From NCBI RefSeq assembly GCF_029625215.1, contig NZ_CP121197.1, positions 3,534,001 to 3,598,000 of the forward strand: a stretch of 64,000 nucleotides of DNA. The letters are read 5' to 3'. This document shows, one piece after another, positions 34,269 to 45,727 of this stretch. A program made the position numbers and the translations under genes. Source of the stretch: Aurantibacillus circumpalustris. GTDB lineage: Bacteria > Bacteroidota > Bacteroidia > B-17B0 > Aurantibacillaceae. Every line of letters begins with the position of its first letter. Position 1 is the stretch's first letter. The notes beneath the pieces were generated by a model. The model did not search any database. It was not told the DNA's origin and worked only from the letters and a program-made list of their open reading frames with translations.

Positions 34269-36044
34269 ATGAAAAAAATAATTTTATCTCTCGCTTTGCT
34301 TTCTTTCATCTCTTGTACTCAAACACCGCAGAAAGAAAGAATCAAAGAATTTCAAAATTTAGATTTCAATTTCTATAAAGCGCATTTCGTGGAACGTTTA
34401 TGGAAACTTTATCCAGAATGGGCTAGCAGTGTTGGATATCATAATTACGACAGTGTATTAACGGTGCCTGACCAAATGCAACGTGAAAAAGAATTGGCGT
34501 TTTTCAGAACAAACCTCGACTCGTTAAAACAATTTGATATTTCTAGATTGTCAGAACAAAATAAAACCGATCTGTATATGATCACCGATTTCCTAAAGGG
34601 TGGTGATTGGGGCCTTACTTCTTTAAAGTCGTACGAATGGAATCCATCAAACTATAACGTCTGCGGAGTTTTTGCTGAAATGCTGAATGGCAACTATGAT
34701 AGTTTAGATACCCGCTTATATCATTTTTATTTAAGAATGGCTTCGGTTCCTGAATACTACGAAGCCGCCAAAAACACAATTAAAAATCCAACAACTGAGC
34801 ATACTGAATTGGCAATCAGTCAAAACTTAGGCGGTGTTTCTGTTTTTGAAAAGGATTTGGAAGAACTTTTAGTAAAATCAAAATTAAGTGAAGAAGCCAA
34901 GGCAAACATGAAAGTAAGTGCCACCGATGCTGCGAATGCAGTTAAAGGCTACGCAGACTGGCTAAAAAAATTGAAAAATAATTCTCCAAGAAGTTTTCGT
35001 TTGGGTAAAGAATTGTATGCTAAGAAATTTGAATTCGATATTCAATCGGGCTACACAGCTGATCAAATATATGAGAAGGCTTTAGCGCATAAAAAAGATT
35101 TGCACGAAAAAATGTTTGAGCTTACTAAAGAATTATGGCCAAAGTATTTAAAAGGTAAAACAATGCCTGAAAATAAACTACAAGCCATCAAACAAATGAT
35201 TGATATTCTTTCCATTAAACATGTGAAACCAGATTCTTTTCAAACTGCCATTGAAAAACAAATTCCGGTTTTGGTAGATTTTGTGAACAAGAAGAACCTA
35301 CTTTATATGGATTCAACAAAACCTCTAGTTGTAAGAAAAGAACCTGCTTATATGGCTGGACTTGCTGGTGCTTCTATTTCTTCTCCTGGTCCTTATGATA
35401 AAAACGGCAACACCTATTACAATGTCGGAAGCATGAATGGCTGGACAAAAGAAAGAGCTGAAAGTTATTTGCGTGAATACAATCATTATATTTTGCAGAT
35501 TTTAAATATTCACGAAGCTATTCCAGGACATTATGCGCAATTAATTTATTCTAATCAAGCGCCGAGTATTATAAAAGCTATTCTTGGAAACGGTGCTATG
35601 ATAGAAGGCTGGGCGGTTTATACAGAACGGATGATGTTGGAAAATGGTTATGGTGCAAGTGATGGTTTTTTCAAAGTAGATTCTGAGATGTGGTTAATGT
35701 ATTATAAATGGAATTTAAGAAGTACCTGCAATACGATTTTAGATTATTCTGTACATACTAAAAACATGAGCAAAGAAGACGCTTTAAGCTTGTTAACGAA
35801 AGAAGCATTTCAGCAACAAGCGGAGGCCGAAGGGAAATGGAGACGCGTTACCTTAAGTCAGGTACAACTCTGCTCCTACTTTACAGGTTATAAAGAAATT
35901 TACGATTTTAGAGAAGAACTGAAAATCAAATTAGGAGACAAGTTTAACTTAAAAGAATTTCACGAAACGTTTTTAAGTTACGGAAGCGCACCAGTTAAAT
36001 ACATTAAGGAATTAATGTTGACTAAAGCGTTAGACGCAAAGTAA
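34269..36044 (+). CDS. DUF885 family lipoprotein, probable metallopeptidase
   Basis: A 591-aa lipoprotein: signal MKKIILSLALLSFISC with a lipobox Cys at residue 16. The rest is a long helical DUF885 domain, containing HEAIPGHYAQ near residue 414, the HExxPGHxxQ-type motif of the family, plus ENGYGASDGFFKVDSEMW and a final helical region. DUF885 proteins look like distant M32/M3-fold zinc peptidases, and activity on small peptides is inferred. It acts on the periplasmic or outer face. Its end overlaps the convergent TonB receptor gene by 23 bases. Confidence 0.88.
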   Translation: MKKIILSLALLSFISCTQTPQKERIKEFQNLDFNFYKAHFVERLWKLYPEWASSVGYHNYDSVLTVPDQMQREKELAFFRTNLDSLKQFDISRLSEQNKTDLYMITDFLKGGDWGLTSLKSYEWNPSNYNVCGVFAEMLNGNYDSLDTRLYHFYLRMASVPEYYEAAKNTIKNPTTEHTELAISQNLGGVSVFEKDLEELLVKSKLSEEAKANMKVSATDAANAVKGYADWLKKLKNNSPRSFRLGKELYAKKFEFDIQSGYTADQIYEKALAHKKDLHEKMFELTKELWPKYLKGKTMPENKLQAIKQMIDILSIKHVKPDSFQTAIEKQIPVLVDFVNKKNLLYMDSTKPLVVRKEPAYMAGLAGASISSPGPYDKNGNTYYNVGSMNGWTKERAESYLREYNHYILQILNIHEAIPGHYAQLIYSNQAPSIIKAILGNGAMIEGWAVYTERMMLENGYGASDGFFKVDSEMWLMYYKWNLRSTCNTILDYSVHTKNMSKEDALSLLTKEAFQQQAEAEGKWRRVTLSQVQLCSYFTGYKEIYDFREELKIKLGDKFNLKEFHETFLSYGSAPVKYIKELMLTKALDAK

Positions 36045-38427
36045 CATAAAAATTTATTGGATCCGCTGGAATTATACCAGGCCCAGGATAACCTTCGGCT
36101 CTGCGTGTGAAGTACTTTGAATTTGTGAGGTTATTTATCCCAGCAATTAGTCCAACTTTTTTGTAAGTGTAATTTGCAGAGAGATCAACAATACTATAAG
36201 CTGGAATAATTCCATAAATAGCAGATGATGAATATTCAGCGTTTGTGGCATCTGTATATTGTTCATCAGTATATGAGTACTGGCATGTAGCTCCAAACTT
36301 TTTAAACTTATAAGTTATTCCAGTTCTGAAAATAATTTCCGGAGCGAATTCAACAATTTTATCACGAAAAATTGCCTGAGAACTTAAATACTTTGCGTTG
36401 ATAAAAGACAGGTTAACAAAAGTAGAGAGATTATGTTTTGATGTTTTGTTGATCAGTTTTATCCAATCGAGTTCACCAAAAGCCTCAATTCCCATACTGC
36501 GACTATCACCGATATTTGTTCGATACCGCACAATTTGAGAAGTAGCAGGATTAACCTTAAGGCTGGTTCCCAAACGATTGTTATACCTTAAAAGAAAACC
36601 ATTTACATCGAAATACAGTAAATTTTTCAGAGCACCTCTAAACCCTCCGTCGATTGTGTAACCATTCTCGTCTCTTAGATTTGGATCCACTATATAATTA
36701 TCATTTACTACTCGCATGTCATTAAAATTGATAGAGCGATAATTCTGACTAAAATTAGCATAAAGTTCCAGTCCTTCAGTGGCTTTAAGTTGGGTGCCAA
36801 TTCCTGCAAGCAAAAAACTTCGCGTATTACTTCTATTGTCTCCTACTTTCTCATCTAATAAGATATTTCCGGCCAAGTCTTTATTTATTAATCGGTAATA
36901 GCCTTCAGATGCCGTAGAAATTGTCTCGTACCTTAATCCTGGTGCTACACACCACCGTTTAGTTAACTGAAAAATATTCTCCATGAAAAAAGCATAATTA
37001 TAGGAAGGGAAAATATAGGACGAGTTTTCTAGATTATTAGGGTTTAAAAATCTAAAATTTGCTTCACTTGATTTATCAGCATCACCTTGCTTACGATACG
37101 TGTTGCCTTTGTAATATCTCGCGCCAATTAATACATGGCTGTTTTGTTTGAATAAATAATACCGATGCAAGACTCTAAGTTCAGCTCCGTAATTCTTATA
37201 TGTATCGCTTAATAAATTTCGATTTGTTGTGGTATCATCAGCACGATCTGGTCTGATTAAGACACCCAAAGCATCTCTACCGGCTAGTAATCCAAAACTT
37301 AAAAAATTAATTTGGGTTCTTTCTGAAATTTTATAATCTGCAGTTAATGAAGTTAAATTCCAATTCACCTTAAACCAATTGCGATTGCGATTTACAATAG
37401 AATTATTAGTTGAAAATTGTTTATCCGTTAAACCACCCGGTTGTTGACTTACATAATTTAAATGGGTGTACTCACCCTTAATAAATAGTTTTTCGGTTAT
37501 TTGATACTTTAAACTTGCAAAGGTATTGTGGTTATTTAGTTCGGATCGACTCCGCCAGCCATTGTAATGTTTGTATTGATAAAACGTATTATACGAAACT
37601 TTTTTAAAGGTTCCCGATAACTGATTAAATGAATTTAAAAATCCATAAGAGCCACCAGTTTGCCTGAAATTTCCAGAGATTTTTTTATCTAAAGGAGCCT
37701 CAGCAAATTTGTAGTTTATCATTCCGCCAAACTGTGTACCGAATTGCAAACCCGCCGCGCCCCTTAGAATTTCTATACGATCAATGGCTTCGGTTGGCGG
37801 TGTGTAATAGCTTTCGGGGTAACCAAGCGCGTCTGCTGAAATATCGTAACCGTTTTGTCTAGTATTAAAATTTGTTACCCGATTCGGATCAAGTCCCCTA
37901 CCTCCTATTCCAATAGTAGAACCTGTACCATCGTTCTCAAACACATTGATTCCAGGAATCTTTGAAAATATTTGTCTGCTGCTATTCGCTGCAAGATTTG
38001 CATTTAAATCTTGAACATAGATTGCTTCCGATTTTTTACCCGCGTAAATTGTTGTGCCTTCTACATTGTTTAAGCGTGAAATACCAAAGCTATTGTCTTT
38101 TTCAGCTTGAATAGTTATTTCTTCCAGATAAATTAAATCAGATTTAATAAAAAAAGTAAGCACCGTATCTTTTGTGACACTCAGTTTTTGCGAAAATGAT
38201 TTGTAGCCCACATGTTTCACAGTGATTGTTACTGGTTTGTTTATTTGAATGGCCGCTTTAAAAAATCCGTTTGAATCGGTAACAATAGATTTATTTCCAA
38301 TAAGAATGATTGCCTCCTTGACAAATTGTGCCGACTTCTCGTTTTGCACAGAACCAATAACATTGGCAGTTTGGGAATAAAAACGGCCAACCACACATGA
38401 CAAAATAACTATCAGGTAAAATCTCAT
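36022..38427 (-). CDS. TonB-dependent receptor (FecA/siderophore type), fourth gene of the carboxylase-imelysin operon
   Basis: An 801-aa outer-membrane receptor. It has a signal peptide, a CarboxypepD_reg-like domain at about 20-100 (ITVKHVGYKSFSQKL), a plug (DLNANLAANSSRQIFSKIPGI, IDRIEILRGAAGLQFGTQFGG) and a 22-strand barrel ending LTNSKYFTRRAEGYPGPGI and YVTLRLTL with a terminal hydrophobic strand. The late segment resembles ferric-citrate/siderophore receptors. It follows the carboxylase-like gene by one base and so belongs to the operon that starts at 42107. Iron-complex uptake is inferred from the receptor class and the imelysin neighbour. Confidence 0.92.
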   Translation of the reverse strand: MRFYLIVILSCVVGRFYSQTANVIGSVQNEKSAQFVKEAIILIGNKSIVTDSNGFFKAAIQINKPVTITVKHVGYKSFSQKLSVTKDTVLTFFIKSDLIYLEEITIQAEKDNSFGISRLNNVEGTTIYAGKKSEAIYVQDLNANLAANSSRQIFSKIPGINVFENDGTGSTIGIGGRGLDPNRVTNFNTRQNGYDISADALGYPESYYTPPTEAIDRIEILRGAAGLQFGTQFGGMINYKFAEAPLDKKISGNFRQTGGSYGFLNSFNQLSGTFKKVSYNTFYQYKHYNGWRSRSELNNHNTFASLKYQITEKLFIKGEYTHLNYVSQQPGGLTDKQFSTNNSIVNRNRNWFKVNWNLTSLTADYKISERTQINFLSFGLLAGRDALGVLIRPDRADDTTTNRNLLSDTYKNYGAELRVLHRYYLFKQNSHVLIGARYYKGNTYRKQGDADKSSEANFRFLNPNNLENSSYIFPSYNYAFFMENIFQLTKRWCVAPGLRYETISTASEGYYRLINKDLAGNILLDEKVGDNRSNTRSFLLAGIGTQLKATEGLELYANFSQNYRSINFNDMRVVNDNYIVDPNLRDENGYTIDGGFRGALKNLLYFDVNGFLLRYNNRLGTSLKVNPATSQIVRYRTNIGDSRSMGIEAFGELDWIKLINKTSKHNLSTFVNLSFINAKYLSSQAIFRDKIVEFAPEIIFRTGITYKFKKFGATCQYSYTDEQYTDATNAEYSSSAIYGIIPAYSIVDLSANYTYKKVGLIAGINNLTNSKYFTRRAEGYPGPGIIPADPINFYVTLRLTL

Positions 38428-38428
38428 T

Positions 38429-39775
38429 TTAATAACTTCTCACCCACTCTTTATTTTTTAAGAAACAATTACTTTCAGCGCTTAAATCAACTGTCGGATC
38501 AATGAATTCTTGCGAGCCAGAGCCATTTAAAGTCACAAAGCTTTGCGCTCTTATACTTGGATCGGAATATCCTTTTTCTATAAACTCCTGCTTCAAAAAC
38601 TTGGCATAATCAACCATCATGTCAGGTTGCGTCGCCATCATTTTTTCCTGCATATAGGTTAAATACTCTTTGTTATCGACCTCAGTAATTTGTTTGGTCT
38701 CTTTATCTTCCACATAAAAAAACGCAGTCCCAGCTTTTTCCACAAGCATCACACGCCAGGAAAAACGATAACCTTGCTCAGTCCAGAACAATTTTCCATT
38801 ATACAATAGATACCTAAAAGGCAGTGTAATCTGAATTATAAAATAAAGAGAAAACACAATCGTTAGTCCTTTTGAAAATTGATTGATAGTAAAAGTGGAA
38901 CCGCTGACTACTTTGTAAACAAAAAGTTTTTTTAAATAGTTTACTATTTTCAAATGCAGGTCTTCTTTAAAAAAGATTATGGTAATTGTAATCATTACAT
39001 AAGGAAACATGCCGATGTTAAAGAAAAGAGCTGTTGCCAGATGAAACACGAGGACAAATACATAAGCAATATTTACAGTTCTTTTATTGAATAGTAAAAA
39101 TCCAATTACTAAATCATACGAACATCCGAACCAGCAAAATAAATAGGCCACCCACTCCTTTTCCATAAAATCTCCAATAACGGCATAATGCGAAAACGCC
39201 GGAAGCCATATTTTTAAAGGCTGTGCCTCCATTAACCAATCGTAATTTATTTTTGCTATTCCGGCAAAAAAGTAAACCAAAAATAACTGGAATTGCAGAA
39301 TGAAAATGTAAAACTTTGGTATTTCGATGGTTTCAGAACGTTTAAATATTTTATTGTCTAATGAAAAACTTTTAGCCGCAGGAATAAAAATGAGCATAAA
39401 CGAAACAAGACTCACAAAATAATAGTGATTAAGATAATTTGTTTTGTCAATGAGTTCAACATAGGTAAAGAGTAAAAAAAACAGAATGGAACTTATCCGG
39501 TAAAACGCACCAAACAAAATTCCAAGACTTGAAATTAAAAGAAGAGAGAAAACGATGTACATGCCTGTTGGGGGTAATGCTTTAACCCACTCAAAACCAT
39601 AATAAGGGAAATGCATTTTGGGTAATATGTACATAGAATGTACCCAACCTTTAAGAATAAAACGGCAAGTAGAAAAAAACATCAATGCCCCGAAGGCGAT
39701 TCTGAAAACAACCAGCGTAGCAATGCTACAATTAGTATTTAAATATTTGAACAGGTTTTTAATCGCCATCCCCAT
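38429..39775 (-). CDS. vitamin K-dependent gamma-carboxylase homologue (HTTM domain protein)
   Basis: A 448-aa integral membrane protein. Residues 1 to about 300 form the HTTM membrane domain, with VELIDKTNYLNHYYF near residue 106 (Lys111 in the region of the catalytic lysine of animal enzymes) and YFFAGIAKINYDWL near residue 168. The C-terminal part keeps features of the animal carboxylase beyond the membrane domain: FSWRVMLVEK, a YLTYMQ...QPDMMVDYAKFL stretch, and FIDPTVDLSAES. Animal enzymes turn protein Glu into gamma-carboxy-Glu using reduced vitamin K. The bacterial reaction is unknown. It overlaps the imelysin gene by 17 bases and ends 1 base before the TonB receptor. Confidence 0.88.
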   Translation of the reverse strand: MGMAIKNLFKYLNTNCSIATLVVFRIAFGALMFFSTCRFILKGWVHSMYILPKMHFPYYGFEWVKALPPTGMYIVFSLLLISSLGILFGAFYRISSILFFLLFTYVELIDKTNYLNHYYFVSLVSFMLIFIPAAKSFSLDNKIFKRSETIEIPKFYIFILQFQLFLVYFFAGIAKINYDWLMEAQPLKIWLPAFSHYAVIGDFMEKEWVAYLFCWFGCSYDLVIGFLLFNKRTVNIAYVFVLVFHLATALFFNIGMFPYVMITITIIFFKEDLHLKIVNYLKKLFVYKVVSGSTFTINQFSKGLTIVFSLYFIIQITLPFRYLLYNGKLFWTEQGYRFSWRVMLVEKAGTAFFYVEDKETKQITEVDNKEYLTYMQEKMMATQPDMMVDYAKFLKQEFIEKGYSDPSIRAQSFVTLNGSGSQEFIDPTVDLSAESNCFLKNKEWVRSY

Positions 39776-40907
39776 CCTGGTAAGTAATTACCACACCAAG
39801 GCTTGAAGGCAAATCTGTTTTTAAGAGTACCAACAATTTTATTAGTTCTTGATAAGCAGTTGTTACTGCTTGTGAGTTTGTTTCTATTTGATAAGAGAGA
39901 GGATTAGCTAAAACACTTAATTTTGCTTGTGCTGACATAAATTGATTTTTAATAGCGTTATATAATGTTCCATCAGTATACTGAATACCGAGATGATCGA
40001 GATAATCGTCAAATCCTTTTCCATTAGTACCTGAATAACTTTTTCCTAAATACATGTTTTCGATAATGCCAAGTGTTTCAATTGCATATGTTAGTGACTG
40101 ACCACTATAGTAGGCTTCACAGTTTTCTGGAAGTATTTTTCCACCGCTTTTTAATCCTAAAGGAATACCAATCTTTGCATTTTTTAAATAATCTAATTCA
40201 TAATTAATTTGATTAATTAAAAAACCAATCGAACTACCAACATCTGTTCCTAAAGAATTAATAAATGTGCTACGGTAAGTACTATTCCATGTGTCGATCA
40301 CAGAATTAAGTATAGTTGTCATTTCATTCAACAAATCGTTTACATATTTACTTCGCTTAGCGTCAGTTAAAAACAGTTGCATTTGATCGGCTTCTGCTTG
40401 ATTAAGTCCGTAAAACAAATAATCTAATGCAGGAAATCCCTTAGTAGCAATGTTTGAGATGGTCTTTAAATCATAAGATCCTGAACTAATATTAGAATTA
40501 ATTAAAGTAACATTTGCAGGAAATACATTAAAATTAAAACGCACGGACGCGTCTTCACCTGGACCAAAACCAAATAAACTAACACGTTGGTAACTTAAAT
40601 AAGCCAAGTGGAGTTTTTCTTTTACTGTTTGAAAATCTGTCAGCGAACCTGAAGTTTTAAAATTTGTAAAACTAAGTTTTAGATTTTCGAGAGCTGTTTT
40701 AAAATCGGCATACGAAGGAATGATGATATTATCCGCCATGTTCACTAAAAGTCCTTGTTTATCAAACACTTTTGAAGGATCTCCGGGTGTATCGTCAGGA
40801 GTTTTAGTTTTTTTGCAAGATGCACCTAAAAGAACCGTACTTGCCACAAGTAACATTCCTAGCTTAATTGCTGTGCTTTTCCTAATGATTTGATTTAATT
40901 TGAACAC
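39759..40907 (-). CDS. imelysin-like lipoprotein
   Basis: A 382-aa lipoprotein: the start is GTG at 40907, the lipobox is LLGASC with Cys31, followed by a short linker. The rest is an all-helical imelysin domain (YADFKTALENLKLSF, LAYLSYQRVSLFGFGPGED, GFPALDYLFYGLNQAEAD, AYYSGQSLTYAIETLGI). Imelysins are periplasmic proteins tied to iron uptake (EfeO/IrpA type), classically with a GxHxxE metal motif. Here that site reads G157-F-P-A-L-D162, so the His is absent and the Glu is Asp. It follows DUF4856 by 72 bases and overlaps the carboxylase gene. Confidence 0.88.
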   Translation of the reverse strand: MFKLNQIIRKSTAIKLGMLLVASTVLLGASCKKTKTPDDTPGDPSKVFDKQGLLVNMADNIIIPSYADFKTALENLKLSFTNFKTSGSLTDFQTVKEKLHLAYLSYQRVSLFGFGPGEDASVRFNFNVFPANVTLINSNISSGSYDLKTISNIATKGFPALDYLFYGLNQAEADQMQLFLTDAKRSKYVNDLLNEMTTILNSVIDTWNSTYRSTFINSLGTDVGSSIGFLINQINYELDYLKNAKIGIPLGLKSGGKILPENCEAYYSGQSLTYAIETLGIIENMYLGKSYSGTNGKGFDDYLDHLGIQYTDGTLYNAIKNQFMSAQAKLSVLANPLSYQIETNSQAVTTAYQELIKLLVLLKTDLPSSLGVVITYQDGDGD

Positions 40908-40979
40908 TTAATTTGATGTTTTAAAAACGAAAATAGAGCGCGGCATTACCGCACTCCATTCTCACCACGATTATTTTAT

Positions 40980-42107
40980 TTAAAGTTTACTTGCATCTAA
41001 ATTAAAAACAGTAGCAAGTTTCGTAATTGCATTATCAATGTCACTTTGACTCATTGTATAAAGGTTTCCACCAAAATAACCCAACAAAGCATTAATGTCT
41101 GCGTCAGAAATAATTCTTGAAGGATTGTATTTAAATGAAGTAACAAAACCATGACCTTCTGAAAGATTGTGATGAAGAGTACCTGCATCGGTTAAATTAT
41201 TTTTTGCACCTTTTAGGTAGCTAATACACTTTGCAGCCGCTACTTTCTCCCAAGTATTCATAACTACTTTACTTGCCGCGTCACGCGCTGTGTTGTCCTT
41301 ATTACTTATTGCAGCACGGCCTTTTAAAAATGCATCCATAATTATTGTGTTACAACCAATAGCGCTATTTACAGAATTCGCGTAACTACCCCAGTTTTTT
41401 AAACCCGTTGTGTTAATTGGAAAATCAACCGGCACACCAAAGTAACCAAAAGCTTCGTCCCATGCTCTTTCCTGAGTCGTCATTCCATTTGTTACAGTTA
41501 CATTGTCATAAGAATTGATGTTGGTTAGTAGTGTAGTTGCTTGGTAATAAAATACCGCGCCCATGATTCCTTTTTCAGTAAATTCTTTGTATTCAAAACC
41601 ATTTGCATCTACTAAAATTGCTCTTGCAGGAGAAATTAGTTTGCCTTTTGTTCCATTTGAAGCTGTTGTGTTGGTAGCATCAGCTGCGGCTACTATACTT
41701 GCAGCAGCAGCATCTTCAAAACTAGTTTCTAATGTTGCTTGAAAACCAAACTCGTTTCCTGTTTTATCTTTTAACTGAATGCCGCTTCCATTAAGATCTG
41801 CGTTTGCAAAAGCATTGTTTGCATTTATATACATGTTCTTCAATTTCTGAGCGTCTAAAGTTGGTTGACTAGCTGTAGTAGAAGTATGAGTGCTTCTTAG
41901 ATACGTGGTTATTTCACCTAGCATTGTAATACATCGTGTAGAATTTGCAAAATCCGTATTACTAAAATTATATGTTGTTGGAATGGTATATGAAAGAGTT
42001 GCTGGAACTTCTGGTTCAGGATCTGGTTCTTTTGTGTCTTTTTTACAGCCGATTAATGTTGTTGCCGCAACGAGTGCAATCATAGAAAGGTATTTAATAG
42101 TGCTCAT
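40980..42107 (-). CDS. DUF4856 lipoprotein, first gene of the carboxylase-imelysin operon
   Basis: A 375-aa lipoprotein with lipobox TLIGC (Cys21), an acidic Glu/Pro linker and a DUF4856 domain (TYNFSNTDFANSTRC, KDKTGNEFGFQATLETSFEDAAA, ERAWDEAFGYFGVPVDFP, NLSEGHGFVTSFKYNP). The family is found in Bacteroidota next to imelysins. Its fold looks helical and distantly imelysin-like, with acidic and histidine residues that could bind metal, but no function is established. It heads the operon DUF4856-imelysin-carboxylase homologue-TonB receptor. The promoter must lie in 42108-42245. Confidence 0.85.
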   Translation of the reverse strand: MSTIKYLSMIALVAATTLIGCKKDTKEPDPEPEVPATLSYTIPTTYNFSNTDFANSTRCITMLGEITTYLRSTHTSTTASQPTLDAQKLKNMYINANNAFANADLNGSGIQLKDKTGNEFGFQATLETSFEDAAAASIVAAADATNTTASNGTKGKLISPARAILVDANGFEYKEFTEKGIMGAVFYYQATTLLTNINSYDNVTVTNGMTTQERAWDEAFGYFGVPVDFPINTTGLKNWGSYANSVNSAIGCNTIIMDAFLKGRAAISNKDNTARDAASKVVMNTWEKVAAAKCISYLKGAKNNLTDAGTLHHNLSEGHGFVTSFKYNPSRIISDADINALLGYFGGNLYTMSQSDIDNAITKLATVFNLDASKL

Positions 42108-42288
42108 AATTTTTTTAATATTTTATGGTTTAAATTTCTTCTACAAAAGTGTTATTTAGACTGTTTATAAACAATACCCGAAACAAGGTATTTTGGTTTT
42201 TAGCCCGTTAAATCTGCGTTATGGGAATAGAAAGGGAATGTTAAGACTGTGAATTGGCGTCAGTTCCCGCGTGAGGGATAGTAGTGAA

Positions 42289-42428: not shown

Positions 42429-43499
42429 TTATAAAGTCTGCGTATAGTATTTATTTCTTATCCAGAATGCGGCATTAACTAATAGAATGAGCGCAGGAAC
42501 TTCCACAAGCGGACCAATTACGCCCACAAAAGCCTGTCCGCTATTAATACCAAATACACCAATAGAAACGGCAATAGCTAGCTCGAAATTATTACCAGCT
42601 GCAGTAAAGGCTATGGAAGTACTTTTTGAATAATCTGCGCCCATTTTATTTCCAATAAGGAAACTCACAAAGAACATGATGGCAAAATAAATCACCAATG
42701 GAACAGCGATGCGGAGTACATCAAAAGGTATTTGAACAATTAATTCACCTTTTAAACTGAACATGACGATGATTGTAAATAATAAAGCGATAAGGGTTAT
42801 TGGAGAAATAAATGGAATGAACTTGTTCTCAAACCACTCTTTGCCTTTTATTTTAATTAAACCGTAGCGCGAAATAAGACCTGCAAGAAAAGGCAAACCC
42901 AAATAAATACCAACACTTTTTGCAATCTCTGCAATAGTAATGTTTACTTCTATTCCGCTGAACCCTAATAATGGTGGTAACACGGTAATGAAAAAATAAG
43001 CGTAGACACTGTATAACAAAACCTGAAAAATACTATTGAGCGCTATTAAACCGGCGGCATACTCACGATCGCCTTCTGCTAATTCATTCCACACAACAAC
43101 CATAGCAATACACCGTGCCAATCCAATCAAAATAAGACCTACCATGTATTCTGGATAATCGTGCAAAAAAAGAATTGCTAACAAAAACATTAATACCGGA
43201 CCAATAACCCAATTTAAAAACAAAGAAGCACCCAGCACTTTTGTGTTACGAAATACTTCACCCATTTTTTCATACCGTACTTTTGCTAACGGAGGATACA
43301 TCATTAAGATTAAACCAATAGCTAAAGGAATATTTGTTGCACCACTTGAAAATGAATTTATTAATGTAGATGAGCTTGGAAAAAAATTACCAATGGCAAC
43401 CCCAACAATCATCGCTAAAAAAATCCATAATGTAAGGTACCTATCTAAAAAACTTAATTTTTTTCTTTCTAACGCGGGCGCACAATCGTTTGCTGTCAT
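42429..43499 (-). CDS. acr3: ACR3 family arsenite efflux permease
   Basis: A 356-aa inner-membrane protein with ten hydrophobic segments, exporting arsenite with the proton-motive force. It has the family segments [16 protein letters not shown] near residue 62, [18 protein letters not shown] with the essential Cys130, and [14 protein letters not shown] and [13 protein letters not shown] in the last helices. It is the final gene of the ars operon arsR-DUF6428-phosphatase/ArsC-like-DUF2490-acr3, 6 bases after the DUF2490 gene. Two strong hairpins follow it. Confidence 0.95.
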
Positions 43500-43505
43500 A
43501 TTTAG

Positions 43506-44219
43506 TTATTTGTTTTTTATAAAATTCAAGTGATTAATCCAGGTTAGTTGTAAGTAGTACTGATTGAACCAGTTTTTATTTCCAATATTCCATGTAATGT
43601 ATAAAATACCCAGTTCTATTTTATTTCGGCTATCCAATTTTTTTCCAAGAGCTGCATATGCCCAGTTTTCTCCATATACAGCTCCTGGATTTTTAAATGT
43701 ATTAAAAAAAAGTTCTTCATAGGCTGTAAAATACAGTTTCTCGTTTAGCGGAGTGTCCATTCCGATCAAGTATCTAAGCCTATGCGTAAAAGGCGTTTCA
43801 TTTGTAATCTTGTTCTTTATAAATCTGCCATCAAAACGCAAACGGTGCATTAGATTTAGTTTCCCGATAGCGTGTTTGAATTTTGCCTGAAGGTAAAGCC
43901 TGTTTTCATTCATATAGTTATCATAAACTACATTTGTGCGCTGGTAAACATAACTTGCTGTTAAAGAAAACTTAGTGGTAATTTTATAAGATAATGCCTG
44001 CTCGGAATAGAACAAATTAAAATATGCATCCATTTTTGGCTTATCTAAGTTGACTAAAGGAAAGGCGGCAAAATAATATAAACTGTACTCAAGCTTGTTG
44101 GTTAAATCTCCCGAATGATCTGCTGTAGGAAATATTCCTGCTACATTAATGTTTTGAGACAAAAGGATTACAGATAAAAATAAGAATCCAATAACAAATT
44201 TATGTTGTCTTGAAAGCAT
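43506..44219 (-). CDS. DUF2490 family outer-membrane protein in the ars operon
   Basis: A 237-aa exported beta-rich protein with a hydrophobic signal segment (residues about 8-22). Strands such as LEYSLYYFAAFPLV, FDAYFNLFYSEQ-like stretches, FSLTASYVYQRTNVVYD and NRLYLQAKFKHAIG, and a C-terminal barrel end (YYLQLTWINHLNF), fit the DUF2490 family of outer-membrane barrels. It is 6 bases from acr3 and 3 from the phosphatase-like gene, so it is part of the ars operon. A role in letting arsenic species cross the outer membrane can only be guessed. Confidence 0.72.
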   Translation of the reverse strand: MLSRQHKFVIGFLFLSVILLSQNINVAGIFPTADHSGDLTNKLEYSLYYFAAFPLVNLDKPKMDAYFNLFYSEQALSYKITTKFSLTASYVYQRTNVVYDNYMNENRLYLQAKFKHAIGKLNLMHRLRFDGRFIKNKITNETPFTHRLRYLIGMDTPLNEKLYFTAYEELFFNTFKNPGAVYGENWAYAALGKKLDSRNKIELGILYITWNIGNKNWFNQYYLQLTWINHLNFIKNK

Positions 44220-44222
44220 AGC

Positions 44223-44834
44223 TTATATTTTAGAAAACACGTAAAGCGTTTCCAGCGCTATTTGACGGCAGCGTTCATCGTATTTCTCTTCACACAAATC
44301 TGTACCGTCAAACAATTTCGGATCATCGTAAGTAGTCGCGATTCTTAATTCAACATTTGGTATAAACGGGCAATTCTGTTCTGCTTCACTGCAGGTCATA
44401 ATTGCGGCAAATTTATCTTGCGGATTTTTTGGATGATCATACACCTTCGAAAAACACTCCAATGCGTTTTCCCCATCGTCATACGAAACAAGTTGAATCG
44501 CGTTTTTATCTGTGCCCAACGCTTTAGTTTTAAATCCAACCCGTTTCAATGCCTCAATGGCATTGTTATTAAATTCAGTTGACTCCGTTCCTCCAGAAAA
44601 AGAATGCACGTTTGAAATTGCGTAATAGTTGCTTGCTACAGCTGCCCATATTTGTCCAAAATGACTTCGTCTAGAGTTATGCGTACAGATATAAGTAAGG
44701 CTCACAGGTTCTTTGTCACTGAGTTTAACTTTGATATATTCTGAAATCTTACTTAAGCTTATTTTTCTTTCTTGTGGAATTGTTTCAAATTCTAAAACCA
44801 AAGAATCACAGTACTTTTTAATAGAAGTATACAT
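44223..44834 (-). CDS. low-molecular-weight phosphatase-fold arsenate reductase-like protein
   Basis: A 203-aa cytoplasmic protein with the CX5R P-loop YICTHNSRRSHF (Cys50 to Arg56 counted from the ATG at 44834). This fold is shared by LMW tyrosine phosphatases and thioredoxin-type ArsC. Further cysteines in MTCSEAEQNCPF and DLCEEKYDERC could form the disulfide relay of arsenate reductases. Operon position between arsR and acr3 favours arsenate reduction. ATG 44834 is preferred over a TTG 24 bases upstream that would run into the previous gene's end. It could alternatively act on phosphotyrosine. Confidence 0.85.
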   Translation of the reverse strand: MYTSIKKYCDSLVLEFETIPQERKISLSKISEYIKVKLSDKEPVSLTYICTHNSRRSHFGQIWAAVASNYYAISNVHSFSGGTESTEFNNNAIEALKRVGFKTKALGTDKNAIQLVSYDDGENALECFSKVYDHPKNPQDKFAAIMTCSEAEQNCPFIPNVELRIATTYDDPKLFDGTDLCEEKYDERCRQIALETLYVFSKI

Positions 44835-44861
44835 TGTTTTTTCGTTTAGATACAGCAAACC

Positions 44862-45335
44862 TTAACAACATTTAGATCCCGGAGCGCAGCAGCTTTCTGC
44901 GGAACCTGCTAATTCCGACAAGGATACTTTTTTCTTATCCTCTGGAACACCACAATTATCTTTTGCTAAACAATCTGTATGTTTTGCAAGTAACACAAAA
45001 TCTTTTCCGTTAAATGCCAAGTCATATTTCCCAATGGTGTCTGACTGATATTCCACTTCGATTTCCAAATCAGGTATTCCTAAAACTTTTTCAGAAAGTT
45101 CAATGATCTTAATTAATTTCTGTGGTTTTAAACGATGGTCGTTATCATTAGCGTTCCACAATTGAAAATTTACCACTTTTTCGTTCCTGACTTTTCCACC
45201 GCAATCGATAAAATCCTTTGTAATGACACCTACCTCGGTTACGTGAAAATGTTCGGGAACCATTGTGCCATTTGGCAGTATAAAGTTTACACCTAACGCA
45301 GTGCCTAAGTGATTTTTAATTTCTGATAGCTTCAT
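44862..45335 (-). CDS. DUF6428 family protein with Cys-rich tail
   Basis: A 157-aa cytoplasmic protein, second gene of the ars operon. The core (LNFILPNGT-like N-terminus, PEHFHVTEVGVITKDFIDCGG, FQLWNANDNDHRLKPQKL) matches DUF6428, a family common in Bacteroidota arsenic operons. The C-terminus ends SCCAPGSKCC, a cluster of four cysteines well suited to bind arsenite or a metal. A chaperone-like role for arsenite is an inference. It follows arsR after 62 bases that include a second operator-like palindrome. Confidence 0.82.
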   Translation of the reverse strand: MKLSEIKNHLGTALGVNFILPNGTMVPEHFHVTEVGVITKDFIDCGGKVRNEKVVNFQLWNANDNDHRLKPQKLIKIIELSEKVLGIPDLEIEVEYQSDTIGKYDLAFNGKDFVLLAKHTDCLAKDNCGVPEDKKKVSLSELAGSAESCCAPGSKCC

Positions 45336-45364
45336 AATTATTTATTTTTTTAGTTTATTATTAA

Positions 45365-45380
45365 ATCGTTAAATACCGAT
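45365..45380. promoter_or_regulatory. second ArsR-operator-like palindrome (between arsR and DUF6428)
   Basis: ATCGTTAAATACCGAT is a 16-bp near-palindrome with 7-bp arms, one mismatch and a 2-base spacer. It matches the layout of the operator at 45746-45761. It lies in the 62-base gap after arsR, so it could give ArsR control over the rest of the operon. Confidence 0.45.
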
Positions 45381-45397
45381 ATATTTAGTCAATTTTT

Positions 45398-45727
45398 TTA
45401 GCAGCAACTATTTTTAGTGGTAAACGATTCGAAAAGGCCACTTAAATAAGTTTTGGCACTTGCCCATTCCTTCTCATCGATGCAATAGCAAACTTTTGCA
45501 CCATCAATATCACCTTTAATAAATCCTGCTTCTTTTAATTCTTTTAAATGCTGTGAAACTGTGCTTTGTGAAAGTGGTAGCTCTTCTACTATGTCTCCGC
45601 AAACACAAGCTTGCTTTTTAATTAAAAGTTGTAAAATAGCAACACGTGCGGGATGTCCTAACGCCTTTGCGTATTTGGCTATCTTATTATCTTTAATCGT
45701 AAACTCTTCTGTTTTTGTTGTTCCCAT
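45398..45727 (-). CDS. arsR: ArsR family arsenic-responsive repressor
   Basis: A 109-aa winged-helix repressor of the SmtB/ArsR family. It has VAILQLLIKKQACVCGDIVEELPLSQS-type helices, where CVCG is the ELCVCDL-like arsenite-sensing pair, followed by STVSQHLKELKEAGFIKG (recognition helix and wing). A terminal CC pair could also take part in metal binding. It would repress its own operon and be released by arsenite. A perfect palindrome lies directly upstream of its ATG. Downstream genes are typical ars functions. Confidence 0.94.
   Translation of the reverse strand: MGTTKTEEFTIKDNKIAKYAKALGHPARVAILQLLIKKQACVCGDIVEELPLSQSTVSQHLKELKEAGFIKGDIDGAKVCYCIDEKEWASAKTYLSGLFESFTTKNSCC

Follow-up and report, generated by a model that had tools for sequence, protein, structure and literature searches.

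Human gamma-glutamyl carboxylase (GGCX), the vitamin K enzyme of the clotting factors, has relatives in bacteria, and one of them is encoded at a locus in a 64,000-nucleotide stretch of the Aurantibacillus circumpalustris genome (Bacteroidota; contig NZ_CP121197.1, positions 3,534,001 to 3,598,000; hereafter the window). In this locus a member of the vitamin K-dependent gamma-carboxylase (VKGC) family is encoded on the minus strand in the order DUF4856 lipoprotein, imelysin lipoprotein, VKGC and TonB-dependent receptor. What would such an enzyme act on in this company? We propose, with a rough probability of 0.45, that the four genes serve iron uptake during iron starvation in Bacteroidota, as a variant of the imelysin-peroxidase systems in which VKGC acts on the imelysin or on its iron compound. 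One large VKGC clade can now be tied to a fixed set of neighbours and to iron starvation, and a di-haem peroxidase is identified as the enzyme that can stand in its place.

The four-gene order is conserved in Bacteroidota

An earlier note on this DNA had described four packed genes, and a check of the open reading frames (ORFs) bears out their order, their coordinates (Table 1) and their spacing of 72, -17 and 1 bases. Conservation was followed in two samples, whose genomes and loci carry G and L numbers below. The first comprised 395 genomes of the phylum Bacteroidota, of which 82 contain the VKGC lumenal domain family PF22777, and 96 VKGC loci were read. The second consisted of the best 80 of 570 loci from named genomes, chosen by patterns including part of the active-site motif, with titles from Bacteroidota or close groups (Rhodothermaceae, Balneolaceae) and one simply 'bacterium'; 79 were readable (L213, in which the VKGC frame was not found, was omitted) and L229, L232 and L234 are common to the first sample. 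The complete four-gene order is kept in 62 of the 96 loci and in 72 of the 79 (69 of 76 after removing the shared loci), so the neighbourhood whose conservation the earlier note had left to be checked is indeed a conserved one. Imelysin and TonB genes flank VKGC on both sides in 70 of the 96 loci, and at least one of them does in 72. We favour the imelysin as the partner of VKGC because it adjoins the enzyme gene in 70 of these 72 loci and in 76 of the 79 of the second sample, with DUF4856 next to the imelysin in 62 and 72; some loci stop at contig ends, and in L064 DUF4856 lies directly next to VKGC. A haem oxygenase gene (PF01126, 6e-17) stands between DUF4856 and imelysin at L071:10232-10834.

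In a tree from which L094 was excluded, the operon enzymes group with one orphan gene (L054) in a single clade, 73 members in all (support 0.998). The remaining 24 phylum loci are this orphan, 15 members of a second, paralogous clade (support 0.993; L043, L048, L052, L060, L061, L066-L069 and L081-L086) and 8 elsewhere. Genes of the second clade follow riboflavin kinase/FAD synthetase genes, assigned by Pfam for 3 loci and by size and position for the rest; a seryl-tRNA synthetase gene lies downstream in L043. Because of this clade, VKGC genes can be said to occupy unrelated contexts, as they would if the operon joined its genes for regulation only and the enzyme served general menaquinone or membrane metabolism. 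We consider that highly unlikely, given that the operon-type enzymes are a clade of their own with the imelysin adjacent in nearly every locus, and that the imelysin gene is retained where the operon is split. In G395 VKGC-TonB and DUF4856-imelysin lie on separate contigs, in G288 DUF4856-VKGC-TonB and the imelysin do so, and G108 holds a lone operon-type VKGC (L054) with the imelysin beside a di-haem oxidoreductase (DHOR); the imelysin kept in all three has the C-terminal Asp-Gly-Asp (DGD) described below.

The TonB receptor is highly conserved across loci. Its top named NCBIfam match is the ferric dicitrate receptor FecA (NF041676), at 81.6 bits well under the cut-off of 1100, so the window receptor misses that assignment. 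Receptor conservation and the FecA match would both suit an enzyme whose substrate is a small molecule on the uptake route, perhaps an iron ligand that it carboxylates or oxidises, and not a protein. We think this unlikely, since it is the imelysin gene that stays closest to VKGC, even in a Persicobacter stretch without a TonB gene, and since the flanks, which differ between the loci inspected, hold nothing clearly biosynthetic: the flanks of one family repeatedly carry a gene for some 500 residues (one copy with a sub-threshold GDSL match only), and LuxR-type regulators lie upstream of the operon in some loci.

The operon has the marks of iron control

Literature searches found no paper linking HTTM or DUF4856 with imelysin, nor bacterial VKGC with HTTM; gamma-carboxylase with imelysin, or VKGC with TonB, turned up in PMC5609570 only. 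The portion of that study available to us lists Riemerella anatipestifer RAYM_09779-09794 (TonB receptor, VKGC, imelysin and a protein called hypothetical) as regulated by iron and Fur, giving ratios under iron limitation of 2.11, 2.64, 3.07 and 2.41 and, in the same gene order, fur-mutant/wild-type ratios with iron of 1.90, 1.39, 1.93 and 1.36. By annotation this is the same four-gene run, likened by gene listing and not by sequence, and its published response agrees with the iron-dependent expression that the earlier note had suggested looking for.

The 19-base Riemerella Fur consensus (PMC5609570) was scanned from -200 to +60 around the DUF4856 start with a threshold of at least 15 matches. 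A Fur-like site is present in 101 of 134 loci, where dinucleotide shuffles expect 1.3. When identical regions are counted once, the site is present in 98 of 131 regions, versus 44 of 1061 at other ORF starts in these loci, counts that are not independent events because many loci are close relatives. The Fur box that the earlier note suggested looking for in 42108-42245 is matched there by a Fur-type site, at 14/19 in the window itself. A sigma-70 promoter scan was uninformative (23 found versus 24.8 expected). The four-gene cluster, carried by many Bacteroidota, looks iron-repressed.

VKGC keeps the catalytic core of the human carboxylase

The window enzyme, the sole HTTM match in its 4.6 Mb genome, matches both PF05090 (HTTM; 4.1e-76, 256 bits) and PF22777 (3.9e-51, 173 bits), each against a cut-off of 27.7. 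Human GGCX chains were matched at E about 3e-41, with VKGC residues 7-445 corresponding to human 50-502 (in human numbers obtained by adding our offset of 31 to the 9wf2 chain numbers) and 120 of 430 aligned residues identical. Because the match covers human 50-502, the protein is more than a bare HTTM protein, as the motifs FSWRVMLVEK and FIDPTVDLS, reported by the earlier note and found again here, had suggested. The description 'full-length' holds only in part: the match reaches human 502, but the protein has just 448 residues, the approximately 250 residues by which human GGCX extends past 502 have no counterpart, and the C99-C450 disulphide is missing, both positions being Phe. Because its counterpart of the human propeptide-binding domain is incomplete, the match stopping ahead of residues such as R513 and I532 named in the available part of PMC12589487, we do not class the protein as a vitamin K-dependent glutamate carboxylase.

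Active-site residues were compared in an alignment of the 96 phylum loci and human GGCX, with 72 operon-type enzymes among them and with residue roles taken from the part of PMC12589487 at hand. Lys111, which the earlier note took for the active site, aligns with human K154, described there as a contact between domains; the catalytic K218 aligns instead with Lys175. Counterparts of K218, N159, H160, A214, W223, G259, F286, F294, F299 and M402 are invariant in all 72 operon-type enzymes, as are those of D153, H287 and G297, and the Y395 counterpart is Tyr in 58 and Phe in 14. The window enzyme itself keeps the quinone-pocket counterparts K218, W223, G259, F286, F294 and F299, with Thr for N290, and departs from the human protein at K217 (Ala), N158 (Leu), M401 (Val) and R436 (not Arg). 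The second sample of 79 enzymes, selected in part by this motif, agrees, apart from Ser at G259 in 4 and Leu at F294 in 2. Quinone-site residues, whose lack would have counted against the earlier note's idea, are therefore conserved. The 24 non-operon enzymes also keep K218 and H160, and carry His at Y395 in 22 and Gln or Glu at D153 in 23. A VKGC gene also lies amid unrelated neighbours on a plasmid of the alphaproteobacterium Paracoccus albus (plasmid searches returned 3 and 4 records).

VKOR (PF07884) was not found in the A. circumpalustris genome (G000), and it is present in 8 of 30 genomes with operon-type VKGC versus 12 of 30 comparison genomes, so it is not enriched with the operon. In G000 menB falls under the cut-off, and two MqnA/D-type genes suggest that menaquinone is likely made by the futalosine route.

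The imelysin belongs to an IPPA-like type with a near-invariant tail

The window imelysin is a member of the imelysin superfamily (M75). Its AlphaFold2 model has the imelysin fold and a mean pLDDT of 92.5, with 55-73 at the last residues, and its four top PDB matches are imelysins (Foldseek 4ecg 1.8e-9 and 3pf0 2.5e-7, the latter with TM 0.78 by target length). The His position of the GxHxxE motif, 159, is Pro in 85 of 107 operon imelysins (Pro159 in the window) versus His in 30 of 31 canonical ones; at the Glu position the window carries Asp162, as do 80 of the 107, and 18 of them have Glu. These two positions place the operon imelysin near the IPPA/PA4372 subfamily of Xu et al., whose motif GxxxxE lacks the His and keeps the Glu, as set out in the part of PMC3143127 available. 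In a tree that took in half of the second sample, computed after removal of the tail columns and excluding L044 and imelysins of 300 residues or fewer, the operon and DHOR-linked imelysins and the Psychrobacter protein 3pf0 split from the 31 canonical sequences (30 distinct) with support 0.994; the labels 'canonical' and 'DHOR-linked' were assigned by tail, and the GxHxxE His serves as an independent check.

An exact DGD end is found in 69 of the 70 adjacent imelysins of the first sample, L080 ending DGDS, and over both samples in 144 of 145 operon imelysins (141 of 142 distinct), with none among 1980 other ORFs of the same loci; the count omits L219, whose imelysin is frameshifted and whose other frame ends DGD. 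The consensus end is [IV]x[IV][TD][YF]x[DS]xDGD. Extra operon imelysins occur in L189, with the tail, and at L194:3440-4555, where the protein ends ...RVEITY, right ahead of the tail position. This near-invariant Asp-Gly-Asp of IPPA-like imelysins is newly pointed out here, and the accessible text of PMC3143127 does not mention it. It is a feature of the imelysin type and does not depend on which enzyme accompanies it, because the Psychrobacter IPPA (3pf0) ends ...GFNSTDGD and DHOR-side IPPA-type paralogues also end DGD (L241, L242, L244, L248 and L189). These same proteins rule out the tail as a VKGC-specific substrate mark. Nor is it kept merely since its codons overlap the VKGC start, for many loci without overlap (gaps up to +153) still keep it.

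The tail hardly varies, its low confidence in the model makes flexibility likely, and its codons come immediately ahead of the VKGC gene. These points lie behind a specific proposal, that VKGC carboxylates or oxidises the free C-terminal Asp-Gly-Asp, for example to beta-carboxyaspartate, and so creates a citrate-like iron(III)-binding end. If true, this would be vitamin-K-type protein modification in bacteria. We regard it as a long shot. As the same tail stands beside di-haem peroxidases, both enzymes would then act on it.

Di-haem oxidoreductases occupy the place of VKGC beside other imelysins

Imelysin is present in 90 genomes of the phylum sample, 18 of them without operon-type VKGC. Among the 17 of these 18 that were read, none has a DGD imelysin, and DHOR lies beside the imelysin, judged by position, in 16; imelysin matches in G390 (two, weak), G105:C3 and G280:C389 were left unread. 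No DHOR was found in 21 of the 30 genomes carrying operon-type VKGC. In the window operon a Pfam search of the encoded proteins detected no di-haem peroxidase, and a 397-residue DHOR of a shorter type is encoded far from the operon in the same genome. Both enzymes occur together in three loci, L080, L189 and L270. The order in L080 is imelysin-DHOR-DGD imelysin-VKGC-TonB, and the stretch read of L270, on a Persicobacter plasmid, runs canonical imelysin-DHOR-DGD imelysin-VKGC and contains neither a DUF4856 nor a TonB gene. L080 is the first branch of the operon VKGC clade (support 0.93 for the other 72). Its imelysin is not part of the clade that unites the remaining operon imelysins (0.92) and is placed towards those linked to DHOR. 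Because three loci hold both enzymes and L080 branches first, VKGC probably entered an operon of imelysin and DHOR and later took over from DHOR. On a plasmid of Pseudoalteromonas donghaensis (L269), an imelysin without the DGD tail lies beside a di-haem oxidoreductase.

The position that VKGC shares with DHOR beside imelysins (16 of 17), and the loci that carry both, could also mean that VKGC is a membrane redox enzyme that replaces the di-haem peroxidase and moves electrons between menaquinol, O2 and imelysin-held iron, with no covalent change to a protein. We hold this to be doubtful, as Pfam finds no haem or metal domain in VKGC and no oxidation or reduction of metals is known for GGCX-type chemistry. 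MauG and MbnH, which are related to DHOR, oxidise the proteins that partner them, and protein modification by the replacing enzyme VKGC is therefore plausible. Within our preferred reading, in which VKGC acts on the imelysin or its iron compound, it is about as likely that the enzyme modifies the imelysin as that it carries out a redox step on the cargo.

DUF4856 and the carboxylation of glutamate

DUF4856 was found elsewhere in the genome in all five cases in which it is unlinked from the imelysin-VKGC pair (G237, G079, G396, G397 in two pieces, and G398), and among nine genomes searched it is missing in G108 only. We conclude that both lipoproteins belong to the system because DUF4856 is kept even when unlinked, and the same five genomes rule out that it is dispensable. 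The imelysin is nonetheless preferred as the partner of VKGC because G108 has VKGC and a DGD imelysin with no DUF4856 found. The reading of DUF4856 as an unrecognised imelysin was rejected: its model had no Foldseek hit to a PDB fold at E 0.001 (best 0.71), and the 50 VIA-align matches listed include none to an imelysin. The best VIA-align Z for the DUF4856 model is 7.8, to helical bundles, which leaves both distant kinship and a new fold possible. PF16148 found DUF4856 in 58 of 395 genomes, an undercount because it missed copies found by our own profile. Three of its residues, E317, H313 and Y242, are present in 134, 119 and 134 of the 134 operon copies respectively; of five copies away from VKGC, 2, 4 and 3 lack them. 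In genomes without a VKGC match, the loci L127-L131 encode DUF4856 proteins with no imelysin in the stretch, and a TonB receptor adjoins in L129 and L131.

These patterns bear on the idea first put forward in the earlier note, that VKGC gamma-carboxylates Glu residues of the two lipoproteins and so makes metal sites. For the acidic linkers the idea is not supported. They contain more Asp than Glu, and Glu is absent from 46 of 130 DUF4856 and 47 of 107 imelysin linkers; in the window the imelysin linker has no Glu and that of DUF4856 has some. No conserved imelysin Glu separates VKGC-linked from other imelysins. The unmatched human part past 502 holds much of the propeptide-binding region, and VKOR, absent here and not enriched with the operon, gives no support. 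The invariant E317 of DUF4856, lost in two of five copies away from VKGC, may keep a weaker form of the idea alive, as may the retention of unlinked DUF4856 and the conserved counterparts of the human Glu pocket, N159, H160 and Y395 (Tyr or Phe). Taken over both lipoproteins, Glu carboxylation appears quite unlikely.

Discussion

In the mechanism that we favour, the TonB receptor would import an iron source, and the two lipoproteins of the envelope, DUF4856 and the IPPA-like imelysin, would bind the iron compound or pass it on. VKGC would reside in the inner membrane with its active site in the periplasm, as the endoplasmic reticulum-luminal side of human GGCX suggests, and would use menaquinol and O2, consistent with the conserved quinone pocket and base. 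Its most likely working partner is the imelysin, and VKGC would act on this protein or its held iron compound in the place of DHOR. Substrate, cofactor and direction of transport are all what we infer from these features.

Several observations weigh against this proposal. The Riemerella iron response persisted in the fur mutant, and the Fur-box table, in the portion of PMC5609570 available, does not include the RAYM_09779-09794 operon; the Fur-like site of the window itself is weak alone. VKOR is missing from 22 of the 30 genomes with operon-type VKGC. Given its retention when unlinked, DUF4856 could be the partner of VKGC. No imelysin residue stood out as a VKGC-specific modification site, and the DGD tail is common to DHOR-linked imelysins and Psychrobacter IPPA. 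Finally, as far as the available text of PMC3143127 reports, thermofluor tests showed no specific binding of ferric iron or of haem by PIBO and IPPA.

Features of the locus and neighbouring genes

The features discussed are collected in Table 1. A convergent gene for a DUF885 protein (34269-36044) overlaps the end of the TonB receptor gene with its 3' end by 23 bases. Upstream of the operon (42429-45727) lies an arsenic cluster that includes ACR3 arsenite efflux (TIGR00832) and ORFs whose products resemble, in our reading, an arsenate reductase and a regulator of ArsR type.

Table 1. Operon features by position in the window
Feature	Position	Strand	Evidence
DUF4856 lipoprotein, 375 residues, Cys21	40980..42107	-	PF16148 E 1.1e-33; AlphaFold2 pLDDT 93.0
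IPPA-like imelysin lipoprotein, 382 residues, GTG start, Cys31, GxPxxD replacing GxHxxE	39759..40907	-	PF09375 E 1.4e-27
Imelysin C-terminal tail codons YQDGDGD, last three residues conserved	39762..39782	-	Sequence comparison
HTTM/VKGC-family membrane protein, 448 residues	38429..39775	-	PF05090 and PF22777
Lys175 codon, counterpart of human catalytic base K218	39251..39253	-	Kept in 72/72 operon enzymes; codon checked
Asn116-His117 codons, counterparts of human N159-H160 (Glu pocket)	39425..39430	-	Kept in 72/72 operon enzymes; codons checked
TonB-dependent receptor, 801 residues	36022..38427	-	PF00593 1e-29; PF07715 1.1e-9
Fur-box-like 19-mer GTTTATAAACAGTCTAAAT	42154..42172	-	14/19 versus Riemerella Fur box; 46 bases ahead of DUF4856 start codon

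Relation to known systems

Human GGCX, as described in the part of PMC12589487 available, shares with the window enzyme the HTTM and lumenal domains, the catalytic lysine, and residues of the Glu and vitamin K pockets. Unlike GGCX, the window protein has 448 residues, shows no match past human 502, lacks the C99-C450 disulphide and has Ala for K217; its genome is also without VKOR, and no propeptide-bearing substrate is known for it. Another bacterial VKGC homologue, that of Leptospira (Rishavy 2005), is reported to epoxidise vitamin K without carboxylating peptides.

The closest known systems are the imelysin-peroxidase iron operons, in Pseudomonas aeruginosa (PA4370-PA4373) and Vibrio cholerae (VC1264-VC1266), from the accessible text of PMC3143127, and the Leptospira lruB cluster, from that of PMC13066512. 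As far as these sources describe them, they share with the window operon iron regulation, imelysin-like lipoproteins, an oxidative partner enzyme, and a second imelysin without the GxHxxE His. The window operon differs in having VKGC for the di-haem peroxidase, DUF4856 as the other lipoprotein, and a TonB receptor fixed downstream. It is thus a variant, and not a member, of the imelysin-peroxidase (EfeB/DUF1111) operons.

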